DNA of 64,000 nt from Nitrospira sp. (GTDB taxonomy: Bacteria; Nitrospirota; Nitrospiria; Nitrospirales; Nitrospiraceae), in contig CP054184.1 of assembly GCA_015709715.1 (NCBI GenBank), forward strand, positions 915,001 to 979,000, read 5' to 3'. The notes below the pieces were generated by a model. It did not search any database, was not told the DNA's origin, and saw only the letters and a list, made by a program, of their open reading frames with translations. The translations under genes and the position numbers were made by a program. Shown here one piece after another: positions 37,728 through 41,206 of the stretch. How positions within the stretch are numbered: the stretch's first letter is position 1; each line of letters begins with the position of its first letter.

Positions 37728-39023
37728 TTATGCGGAACGCTGCAACCACCGCACGATCACCCGACGCATCCGTGCCGAAGGCAAACACTTGACAGCCAAC
37801 CAGTGGAACGGCCTGAGCCACACCGCCAACTGCCGCAGGGCCGGCTGCGATACGAACCACGGTAACGGTCGTCGAATCACCGCGGCCTCACTGCGGCAGA
37901 GCGAGATCCCGAACTTCCACCGTTCCCACCACGAATCCTTCAGCAGGAAATGCAGCCCCTCCACATTCTGTTCGTCAATGCCGGAGGCGGGAAATTTGAG
38001 CAACTGCTTCGGCATATGGCGGAGCAAGCCGGGAATGGTCCGGTCTGTTTCAATCGCATCGAGCACGGCTCGCGGCAAGACGATGTCGAAGAGCGACTTC
38101 GCCAAGGCCAGTCCCAGCAAAACCATGCGCCGGCACCGCCATTCCTTTGCTAGGAACAGCAGCCGACTCCAATCCAAGGTTTGACGACGAGTGACCAGTT
38201 CCGCCACGTCGCACGCCCACTTCAGCTGCTCCCACCCGTGTTTTGCGCCGTGCACACAGAGGAGCAACAATAATTCTTCAGGACAAAGTCCCGGCACCGA
38301 TTTGGTTGGCAGATCGACGGCTCTCACACGAGCCCATAGCTGGCTTCGATCCAATCGAAACTCAAAGCGAGGCCCGGCCATGGTCCACTGTAGATCGACC
38401 GCGATAATGCCGTTACGCTTCTGAAAGAAATGGTAGGGCTCATCGGAGGATTCGTCGTAGTGCCCGTTCCGACTCGTCAGTTGATAGCCCTGAGACCACA
38501 AGACCTGTCGAGCCTGAGACACCGAGGTCTGATCGACGATCAAATCCAAGTCGGCGCACTCCCGCAACGCAAGGTCTCCATAGGCGAACTGGGCCAAGGT
38601 GACTCCCTTGAACGGAATGGTCCGGACCCCTTTCGCCGCCATGGCCTCGACCACGGACGCCAATTCCTTGGCCAACAGTGAGTTCAACAGAGCATTGGCT
38701 TGAATATGACGTCGGAAGAGTTCATGGACGGTCGCGGGGACCGCAGCAGGACAGATCGCGACCAGATTACGATATACTAGGGGTGCTACTCCGTGAGCCC
38801 TGGCCAACCGCCAAATCAGATCCCACTCCACGCCGTCATCGACCAGGTCCGCCACTTCGACACGGATAAAGTCGTTGATCCTCGTTCGGGCGCACAGCAC
38901 GAGCAAACGCCCTTCCGCGTGCAAATGAGCGAGCCCCGTCGATGGCACAAGCCGCTTTGGCATCGCTCCTCTCCGGCTCGACCGTTTCCAGCCTGTCGTC
39001 GTGGGTGTCACCCCTTGCCCCAT
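37728..39023 (-). CDS. Nucleotidyltransferase family protein of lasso/RiPP clusters
   Basis: 431 aa of the 'uncharacterised nucleotidyltransferase' family (NTP_transf_5 type) often found beside lasso-peptide genes. The catalytic region is IPFKGVTLAQFAYGDLALRE then CADLDLIVDQ with the D-x-D metal pair. A helical C-terminal half (LCPEELLLLLCVHGAKHGWE) is typical. It starts two bases before the end of the kinase gene; GGGAGAG is 8 bases upstream. An ATG at 38963 with GAGAGGAG is an alternative. Members may modify the phosphorylated peptide or another cluster product; function is not established. Confidence 0.82.
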   Translation of the reverse strand: MGQGVTPTTTGWKRSSRRGAMPKRLVPSTGLAHLHAEGRLLVLCARTRINDFIRVEVADLVDDGVEWDLIWRLARAHGVAPLVYRNLVAICPAAVPATVHELFRRHIQANALLNSLLAKELASVVEAMAAKGVRTIPFKGVTLAQFAYGDLALRECADLDLIVDQTSVSQARQVLWSQGYQLTSRNGHYDESSDEPYHFFQKRNGIIAVDLQWTMAGPRFEFRLDRSQLWARVRAVDLPTKSVPGLCPEELLLLLCVHGAKHGWEQLKWACDVAELVTRRQTLDWSRLLFLAKEWRCRRMVLLGLALAKSLFDIVLPRAVLDAIETDRTIPGLLRHMPKQLLKFPASGIDEQNVEGLHFLLKDSWWERWKFGISLCRSEAAVIRRPLPWFVSQPALRQLAVWLRPFHWLAVKCLPSARMRRVIVRWLQRSA

Positions 39024-39024
39024 G

Positions 39025-40062
39025 TCAGATCTCTCCCTTGCCTGTCCGTTCGAGTAATGGCGTCACCAGCCATGGTAGTTCCAACACATCACGGCCGAAA
39101 TGCAGCCGGTACGCATCCGCCTGTTCGACGAGGCGCGTCAACGCCTGAAATTCCCTGCGAGCGATATCCGCGTCATACACCAGCAGCGCGTGCGGAAGTA
39201 TGAGTTGCAGCGCCTGTTTCTTGGACAAGGGCTCCAGGCAACTGTGAGCGGAATCCACAACTTCGGGGAATAGGATCACGGCAGGAAGGCAGGGATCGCC
39301 CAACGGTGCCGGATAGAGATCCTGAACACGGAAGTATCGTTTGGGGATCCCGGGCCGGAGAATGGATGTGGGAGCCTGCTGCAATTCAGGAAAGAAGGCG
39401 ACGGTTTGGTCGGTCACATTGACCTTGAGCGGAAAAGGCAGCAGTTCGACTTGTCCGCCGGACAATCGAAAAAACGGATGATCGTCCGAGAGATACCGGT
39501 ATCCCCCTCGAAGCAAGGAGAGGAACGAAGTCGTTTTGCCACGGCCGCTGAATCCCGGAATCAGCACTCCCCGACCATTCTTTTCGAGAGCAGTGGCATG
39601 GAAGGTATACAGACCGCGCCGCTTGAGCAGTTCCGTCACGCCGAAGTGCACGAAACTCGCACGGATGTCGGCGGTCATGTCATCCGGTCGAACAACGTAG
39701 CCCTGCACGTGCCGCTTCGCTCCGTCGATCACAACCATGCCTTCTTCGTGAAAATCAGCCAGGATCAAGCCACGCGCTTCGTACACATCGCAACGCCAGG
39801 TCATCCGACGTCCCGTACCCACCGTCAGCCCTGAGCTTCCAAATAGTCGACGGGCATCGGCAGGCAGGCGCATTGGAATGTCGGCAGGGCAGGCGGCTGC
39901 CTCAAACTGCATCGTCATCGGCACGTCGCAGAAAGCTGTACACCTGAAAGCATAGAGGAGATCCTCAACCGCGTTCGCCACGGATGGGGACTCGGTCAGG
40001 AAGCGGATCTCTACGCCGTGAATAGAAAAGAGCAGTTCATGTGCGGCGATCGTCATTGCCAT
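39025..40062 (-). CDS. HPr-kinase-like serine kinase of RiPP (lasso-type) cluster
   Basis: 345 aa from the ATG at 40062 (40056 also possible). The C-terminal HprK-like fold has the P-loop PGFSGRGKTTSFLSLL at residues ~170-178 and the paired acidic motif YLSDDHPFF just after, as in HprK. A FHATALEKNGRGVLI strand precedes it. In paeninodin-type lasso clusters, homologues phosphorylate the C-terminal serine of the precursor peptide. The candidate precursor immediately upstream ends in Ser, which fits. It follows that small gene by 70 bases. Confidence 0.85.
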   Translation of the reverse strand: MAMTIAAHELLFSIHGVEIRFLTESPSVANAVEDLLYAFRCTAFCDVPMTMQFEAAACPADIPMRLPADARRLFGSSGLTVGTGRRMTWRCDVYEARGLILADFHEEGMVVIDGAKRHVQGYVVRPDDMTADIRASFVHFGVTELLKRRGLYTFHATALEKNGRGVLIPGFSGRGKTTSFLSLLRGGYRYLSDDHPFFRLSGGQVELLPFPLKVNVTDQTVAFFPELQQAPTSILRPGIPKRYFRVQDLYPAPLGDPCLPAVILFPEVVDSAHSCLEPLSKKQALQLILPHALLVYDADIARREFQALTRLVEQADAYRLHFGRDVLELPWLVTPLLERTGKGEI

Positions 40063-40132: not shown

Positions 40133-40246
40133 TTACGAAAACTGTTCGTTCTGGACGCGAGAGATGGCAATGGCCGTCACATCACGCAACAACTCATGTG
40201 CCACTAACTCCGGCTTGACATACTGCTGCTTTGGCTGCTCTTCCAT
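40133..40246 (-). CDS. Candidate RiPP precursor peptide (lasso-leader-like), 37 aa
   Basis: A short gene read directly from the sequence. ATG at 40246, TAA at 40135-40133, preceded by the near-perfect ribosome site AAAGGAGGTGA ending six bases before the ATG and overlapping the pqqD stop. Residues 9-24 read YVKPELVAHELLRDVT, fitting the lasso leader motif Y-x2-P-x-L-x3-G-x5-T except that Glu18 replaces Gly. If cleavage follows the residue after Thr24, the core is residues 26-37, IAISRVQNEQFS: 12 residues, Glu at core position 9 (the usual macrolactam acceptor range is 7-9) and a C-terminal Ser. A 12-residue core is short for a lasso. It is surrounded by RRE, protease, kinase and nucleotidyltransferase genes. 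Confidence 0.72.
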   Translation of the reverse strand: MEEQPKQQYVKPELVAHELLRDVTAIAISRVQNEQFS

Positions 40247-40252
40247 GCTGAT

Positions 40253-40570
40253 TCACCTCCTTTCAATGTGAAGTAATCCTTCCTCCTCCAAGTGCCGCAT
40301 CAGCTCCATGAGGTCGCGATGCGCCTGGTCCGCAGGCACATCGAACTCACGGCATACCGACTCCAGAATCTCCGCCAGCGAACGGTCTCCTTGGCACTGA
40401 TTCCAAATCAGGGCTCCCACTGGATTCAGTGTGTAATAGCGACCGGTGCTCAGATTCAGCACGACGCTCTCCCAGTCCAGCATGGTGCTATGCACATCCT
40501 GTCTCTGCTTGGGAACAAGCAGGGAGAGAGACATGAGATCTTCCTTCGAGACTTGGACCGCGTGAGACAT
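40253..40570 (-). CDS. PqqD-family RiPP recognition protein (lasso B1-like)
   Basis: 105 aa from the ATG at 40570, which has AGGAGG 5 bases upstream and so is preferred to the start at 40639. Classical PqqD fold: SVVLNLSTGRYYTLNPVGAL, then IWNQCQGDRSLAEILESVC and DLMELMRHLEEEGLLHI. Such proteins form the RiPP recognition element that binds the leader of the precursor and presents it to the B2 protease and other enzymes. Its stop lies within the ribosome-binding site of the precursor gene. Confidence 0.9.
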   Translation of the reverse strand: MSHAVQVSKEDLMSLSLLVPKQRQDVHSTMLDWESVVLNLSTGRYYTLNPVGALIWNQCQGDRSLAEILESVCREFDVPADQAHRDLMELMRHLEEEGLLHIERR

Positions 40571-40762: not shown

Positions 40763-41206
40763 CTACGCAGAGACAGGCGGGTGTTCGTGGGATGGACTCG
40801 AAGTAGGCGGACAGGCGACGGTAACGGTGAATGATTGCCAATACGGCGAGGGCTCGAGAAAGGCTCCGCCGTTGAGCATGAGCCAGGCATGACCTTCCAA
40901 ACGCTGATGAAGTTTCATAACGCCGCAGCAGAATTGAACCGGTAAGCCGCGTCGACGTGCGAACCAATAAAGTGCCAACGTACGTGGGAAGCAATTGCCT
41001 TTGGGATTGTAGGGGAACAGCGTCAACCAGCGGTCGACGTAGTACACGATTTTGTCCAGGGGAGCCGGCCTGCCCGCCCCCTCCGCAGGTCGACAGGTCA
41101 ACCAGCGCAACAGGCGCGGCAGTGACACCAGCCGGAGGCTCAACCTGATGACGACCAACGTGATCCCGGTGCCAAAGATCAGCCGATACCGATCAACCAC
41201 AGACAT
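40763..41206 (-). CDS. Lasso-peptide-type B2 leader protease (transglutaminase-like)
   Basis: 147 aa of the transglutaminase-like B2 family that cleaves the leader in lasso biosynthesis. The catalytic Cys72 lies in NCFPRTLALYWFARRRG and His106 in LEGHAWLMLNGGAFLEP. An N-terminal hydrophobic helix-rich segment (LIFGTGITLVVIRLSLRLV) is normal for the family. It is the first gene of the cassette, 78 bases after the purF stop and ~190 bases upstream of pqqD. The C-terminal tail (PPTSSPSHEHPPVSA) is less typical. Confidence 0.88.
   Translation of the reverse strand: MSVVDRYRLIFGTGITLVVIRLSLRLVSLPRLLRWLTCRPAEGAGRPAPLDKIVYYVDRWLTLFPYNPKGNCFPRTLALYWFARRRGLPVQFCCGVMKLHQRLEGHAWLMLNGGAFLEPSPYWQSFTVTVACPPTSSPSHEHPPVSA

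Follow-up and report, generated by a model that had tools for sequence, protein, structure and literature searches.

A predicted RiPP precursor with a lasso-type leader in a cyclase-less gene cluster of Nitrospira

A 37-codon gene lies between a pqqD gene and a kinase gene in a 64,000-nucleotide stretch of a Nitrospira genome (GCA_015709715.1, contig CP054184.1, positions 915,001 to 979,000; here called the window) and was initially annotated as encoding a lasso-type precursor peptide. The locus raises the question of whether such a leader, with its PqqD neighbor, belongs to a lasso peptide and, if not, what the product might be. The reading that we favor, with a probability of roughly two in three, is a short RiPP from a lasso-derived pathway without a cyclase, probably a linear phosphopeptide whose tail is hypervariable.

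The precursor gene, its operon, and its homologues

The coordinates, the open reading frame, and the motif spacing of the initial annotation (Y9-P12-L14-x3-E18-x5-T24) were confirmed, as was the placement of the gene between pqqD and an HprK-related kinase gene. Its account of the cluster was incomplete: the operon, which follows purL and purF, has the order B2 peptidase, PqqD/B1, precursor, HprK-like kinase, PF14907 nucleotidyltransferase and contains no cyclase gene (Table 1). The ribosome-binding site of the precursor is strong and overlaps the pqqD stop codon, and a promoter and terminator scan of the locus found nothing exceeding shuffled sequence.

Table 1. Features of the cluster, in window coordinates
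Feature	Position	Strand	Evidence
Precursor peptide gene, 37 aa, MEEQPKQQYVKPELVAHELLRDVTAIAISRVQNEQFS	40133..40246	(-)	ORF with ribosome-binding site; ATG at 40246, stop at 40133
Leader, residues 1-25, ending T24-A25	40172..40246	(-)	Conserved positions; pN/pS 0.08 (congeners)
Core IAISRVQNEQFS, 12 residues	40136..40171	(-)	pN/pS 0.13 (+1..+5), 0.70 (+6..+12)
Ser29 codon (core +4), predicted phosphorylation site	40160..40162	(-)	Hydroxyl conservation and BsfK/Ser3 precedent
Ribosome-binding site AAAGGAGGTGA	40253..40263	(-)	Sequence; 6 nt upstream of precursor ATG
PqqD-family B1 protein (RiPP recognition element)	40253..40570	(-)	PF05402, E 3e-21
B2 leader peptidase (transglutaminase-like)	40763..41206	(-)	NF033537, 54.8 bits (cutoff 33); PF13471
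HprK-related kinase	39025..40062	(-)	TIGR04352, E 4e-16, below cutoff
PF14907 nucleotidyltransferase	37728..39023	(-)	E 1e-67

When homologous loci in other Nitrospirota were searched, a conserved small gene was found, mostly at the same site. There are 118 distinct homologues of the precursor, all from Nitrospirota and mostly adjoining purL-purF, and the leader and the gene order are kept across genera. A profile built from 59 small ORFs with a common leader, found adjoining kinase genes, matches 49 of 396 Nitrospirota genomes, two of them from a sister family, and finds a single copy in the window genome (E 4.9e-18). The seeds were selected by motif, which by itself accounts for some of the conservation seen in their alignment; the later profile search found extra members with altered motif residues. 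An independent degenerate DNA pattern run against 84,980 species matched 48 stretches, whose titles are all Nitrospira, Nitrospiraceae, or Nitrospirae and which include one from "Candidatus Nitrospira defluvii" (predicted core, IQLSRVLDRTPA). The HprK-related kinase is present in 75 of the 175 genomes of the bacterial family, and in relatives its neighborhood repeatedly contains small ORFs that share the leader. All genes of the cluster are intact in the window genome and in at least 16 congeners. A spurious ORF is ruled out by this conservation and by selection at the codon level.

Two further kinds of locus were observed. Orphan precursors with the family leader lie distant from biosynthetic genes in L112, L114, L115, L116, and L126, and the purF site of L058, L064, L065, L067, and L068 carries the kinase alone or the kinase with PqqD and no recognizable precursor or B2 gene.

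Leader, core, and the question of a cyclase

The leader consensus is Y..P.[LV]..HELLRD[VI]T[AG]. Tyr(-17) and His(-9) are each found in 116 of the 118 precursors, Arg(-5) and Thr(-2) each in 117, and Asp(-4) in 114; as Pro(-14) and Leu(-6) served as alignment anchors, they cannot be counted, and the anchor partly constrained the His (His/Arg) and the Thr (Thr/Ala). For 20 congeneric genes whose cores are 12 residues long, pN/pS (pooled across gene pairs and uncorrected for relatedness) was 0.08 for the leader, 0.13 for core positions +1 to +5, and 0.70 for positions +6 to +12. The purifying selection on which the initial annotation had staked its claim is thus present, with the Tyr, Pro, and Thr positions nearly invariant. 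Purifying selection on the leader together with a nearly free tail marks the gene as encoding a RiPP precursor whose leader is of the B1 type. The conserved leader, the variable core, and the adjoining genes for modifying enzymes are together what generally characterizes such precursors, and this part of the earlier proposal, a RiPP precursor whose leader resembles those that lasso-type PqqD/B1 proteins recognize, holds up.

The attribution to lasso peptides fared differently. The lasso leader motif Y-x2-P-x-L-x3-G-x5-T is matched at Y, P, L/V, and T, and the Glu in place of Gly, taken earlier for an exception, is the rule throughout the precursor family (H-E-L-L-R-D). None of the 59 family members matches the NCBI lasso leader model NF033521, which does recognize four true lasso precursors from relatives. 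The replacement of YG by HE is systematic and accompanies the absence of a cyclase; as far as sequences can tell, it is the mark of a distinct family.

Beyond the T-A or T-G at the end of the leader, the sequence changes fast. Core lengths run from 4 to 38 residues among the 118 precursors, the last seven core residues are hypervariable among congeners, and one congeneric core has just 8 residues (IQLSRTMK). Of the 25 congeneric cores, 23 open with Ile and one each with Leu and Thr, so that none starts with the Gly, Ala, Ser, or Cys of a lasso peptide. The acid at core positions 7 to 9, pointed out earlier in the window copy, is indeed there as Glu9 and is unconserved, being found in 11 of the 25 congeneric cores, absent from 14, and found in 48 of 116 family cores (shuffled expectation, 36.8; standard deviation, 4.4). 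Cleavage after Ala25 is predicted by analogy with the lasso B2 rule; the site could differ in the genus of the window, because the Ser at +4 lies inside a conserved I-x-[LIVY]-S-R block.

No macrolactam synthetase of the asparagine synthetase family is encoded in the window cluster, and the PF00733 proteins of the genome are located elsewhere. In the window genome nothing exceeded the cutoff of the lasso cyclase model NF033535 (best score, 261 bits; cutoff, 525), while the cyclases of relatives' lasso clusters score about 494 to 539 bits. Across 60 related loci no asparagine synthetase was found save one unlinked AsnB, which lies some 4 kb upstream of the B1 gene; as a positive control, the same query set recovered the cyclase in 10 of 10 lasso-type loci. 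A second lasso cluster acting in trans in the same genome is ruled out, since the genome has one B2 gene, that of the window cluster, and no lasso-type cyclase. Five AsnB-type synthetases are encoded elsewhere in the genome, and an unlinked enzyme of this type could in principle act in trans.

Such an enzyme is what a true but variant lasso peptide would call for, with a cyclase encoded elsewhere closing a ring from Ile1 to Glu9. The leader spacing and the B1 and B2 proteins are lasso-like, Glu9 is present in the window core, an acid at 7 to 9 goes with a small first residue, mostly Gly, in 22 relatives, and the acid mildly exceeds its shuffled expectation. We nevertheless regard this reading as unlikely in view of the low cyclase-model scores of the genome's own synthetases, the congeneric cores that lack the acid, the absence of a small first residue from all 25, and the 8-residue core. 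A canonical lasso peptide is rejected: the B1 and B2 proteins are present, and the precursor has no cyclase in its cluster and none of lasso type in its genome, begins its core with Ile, shares no conserved acid at 7 to 9, and does not match the leader model. Some Nitrospiraceae do carry canonical lasso clusters, and certain genomes among them, with two B2 genes, also hold the cyclase-less system; the lasso clusters at L187, L190 to L194, and L196 have a cyclase, the leader Y..P.L.EYG...KLT, and Asp8/9. A full-text literature search for lasso clusters without a cyclase returned no paper.

Modifying enzymes and a proposed pathway

The best solved relatives of the PqqD/B1 protein are the lasso B1 proteins TbiB1 (E 3e-10) and TfuB1. 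In the B2 protein the putative catalytic residues are Cys72, His106, and Glu118; the Cys and His are invariant, and the third residue is Glu in the precursor family versus Asp in lasso B2 proteins. No solved structure was found for B2 by sequence, and its structure model (pLDDT 85) gave weak matches, mostly to Cys-His transglutaminase and protease folds (Z at most 5.4).

The window kinase, only distantly similar to characterized ones, contains the P loop GFSGRGKT and an Asp-Asp pair, and GxSGxGKT and DD are conserved in the Nitrospira kinases. By sequence, everything expected of an HprK-type peptide kinase is present: the His, the P-loop Lys, the Asp-Asp, and, on the core, a hydroxyl residue that could accept the phosphate. 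A Ser, Thr, or Tyr at core +3 or +4 was found in 116 of the 118 homologues, against a shuffled mean of 36.8 (standard deviation, 4.8; maximum, 53), a figure that is no probability, as the sequences are related. Outside the genus of the window, residue +3 is Ser in 73 of 93 precursors and Tyr in 15; +4 is Ser in all 25 members of the genus-like set, which was itself defined by a motif with that Ser. The HprK-like kinase BsfK phosphorylates core Ser3 of BsfA, accepting Thr but not Tyr at that position, and is accelerated by the B1 protein (PMC10368454, Duan and co-workers), whereas the paeninodin kinase targets the C-terminal residue (PMC8498205, PMC9266682). A paeninodin-like C-terminal Ser is ruled out as the kinase site, since the last core residue is unconserved among homologues. 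Given the conserved +3/+4 hydroxyl, the BsfK precedent, the retained kinase motifs, and the unconserved C terminus, phosphorylation of an early core hydroxyl appears to be the best-supported modification.

The part played by the nucleotidyltransferase is less certain. In the pseudomycoidin pathway such an enzyme attaches hexoses to the phosphate group (review, PMC9266682), and the PF14907 gene is usually a member of the operon. In eight congeners (L205 to L212) the purF-site locus is decayed or deleted and the PF14907 gene survives undamaged; in three of these congeners a divergent PqqD is all that remains beside it. B2, precursor, and kinase have been disrupted or lost together in all eight, and PqqD may go either way. 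The gene sequences thus suggest that the precursor, its peptidase, and its kinase stand or fall together, whereas the nucleotidyltransferase fares differently; because it persists in loci whose pathway has decayed, its part in the pathway is uncertain, and it may have a separate function.

We infer the enzyme activities, the order of the steps, the cleavage site, and the linearity of the product as follows. The PqqD/B1 protein would bind the conserved leader, and the HprK-like kinase, assisted by B1, would phosphorylate the early core hydroxyl (Ser29 at +4; Ser or Tyr at +3 in relatives). The PF14907 protein may then add a further group to the phosphate, after which B2 would cut after Thr24-Ala25 and release a 12-residue, probably linear phosphopeptide. 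The main doubts concern the cleavage site in the genus, the possible trans-acting synthetase, and the absence of an exporter. The variability of the tail and the patchy loss of the pathway are the two observations behind our suggestion that the peptides perhaps act in competition or signaling between Nitrospira strains.

The genus of the window has the smallest gene set among the clusters of the precursor family. Its cluster has no exporter, and elsewhere in the window genome no orthologous exporter was found, only generic ABC exporters with 28 to 29% identity. This absence and the eight congeners in which B2, PqqD, precursor, and kinase have decayed or been lost would fit a relic, a genus pathway that has lost its cyclase and exporter and no longer turns the peptide into a product. 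We consider this improbable: the window genome and the congeners with complete clusters have intact genes that retain their catalytic residues, purifying selection on the leader is strong, and the cyclase is equally missing from clusters that have an exporter.

Those richer clusters, in other genera, add an ABC exporter, two graspetide-type ATP-grasp proteins, and a fatty acid hydroxylase, and clusters in the sister family add a GMC oxidoreductase and a Gluconate_2-dh3 subunit. A radical SAM protein occurs in four loci, with a precursor of related leader seen in two of them. No lasso cyclase was found in the exporter, ATP-grasp, hydroxylase, GMC, or radical SAM variants. The relatives' ATP-grasp proteins match TIGR04187 (E 7e-37) and the MvdD and MvdC models, with a weak match to an ATP-grasp structure, and their clusters are possibly hybrids of lasso-type leader handling and graspetide chemistry. 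Tandem ATP-grasp pairs lie directly before PqqD in L049 (10457-12400), L109 (9913-11771), and L113 (8889-10750), and cores in ATP-grasp clusters, which have the same leader family, often contain [Q/V/T]KY[RK]EK. The GMC oxidoreductase adjoins the precursor/ATP-grasp cluster in L109 (6468-8771, with Gluconate_2-dh3) and L057 (4201-5883). The radical SAM version (L060 to L063) has precursors such as FVRPILTRHATLPKVTA / DFFGTFSPRNR, in which Phe replaces Tyr and the leader plan is the same.

The two ATP-grasp proteins beside same-leader precursors suggest a graspetide-like product, with side-chain rings formed by ATP-grasp ligases, for the window peptide as well. This is very improbable here, as the window cluster and its genus lack an ATP-grasp gene and the cores of the genus offer few donor/acceptor pairs or none. 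Returning to the linear phosphopeptide, a wider proposal, for and against which we see the case as evenly balanced, is that a Nitrospirota-wide RiPP family arose from a lasso pathway, lost the cyclase, and kept B1, B2, and kinase for short, phosphorylated, linear peptides with hypervariable tails, with graspetide-type ATP-grasp ligases, a fatty acid hydroxylase, a GMC oxidoreductase, or a radical SAM enzyme taking the cyclase's place in several lineages. A lasso-type leader, reader, and peptidase that work without a cyclase would form a platform attachable to different modifying enzymes, and the 118 precursors with their matching enzymes are a ready test set. Among the papers searched, none describes such peptides in Nitrospira, a genus of major nitrite oxidizers and comammox bacteria. 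A Y-x2-P-x-L leader with B1 and B2 is by itself no proof of a lasso peptide.

Comparison with known systems

The bsf system of Bradymonas sediminis (BsfA, BsfB1, BsfB2, BsfK, BsfN, BsfC, BsfD; PMC10368454) shares with the window the YxxPxL leader, stand-alone B1 and B2 proteins, an HprK-like kinase, and a nucleotidyltransferase; it has a cyclase and an exporter, and the window cluster has neither. The bsf precursor has core Gly1, Asp8, phosphorylated Ser3, and Ile at -2, whereas that of the window has Thr at -2, the HELLRD leader, and Ser at +4. The paeninodin and pseudomycoidin systems (PMC8498205, PMC9266682) likewise share B1, B2, and an HprK-like kinase with the window, and the nucleotidyltransferase that acts after the kinase in pseudomycoidin (PMC9266682, PMC8498205) has its counterpart in the PF14907 protein. 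Their clusters contain a cyclase and their kinases act on a C-terminal Ser, in contrast to the unconserved C-terminal residue of the window family.

The canonical lasso clusters of other Nitrospiraceae (L187 to L196) resemble the window cluster in their B1 and B2 genes and, often, an HprK-like kinase and PF14907. Unlike it, they have a cyclase of 640 to 680 aa, a leader of the form YxxPxL.EYG...KLT that matches NF033521, Asp8/9 and usually Gly1 in the core, and Asp as the third B2 residue. Known graspetide leaders differ from the window-type leader. Graspetide ligases (MvdC/MvdD, TIGR04187), absent from the window cluster, stand in pairs beside the same precursor family in some relatives.
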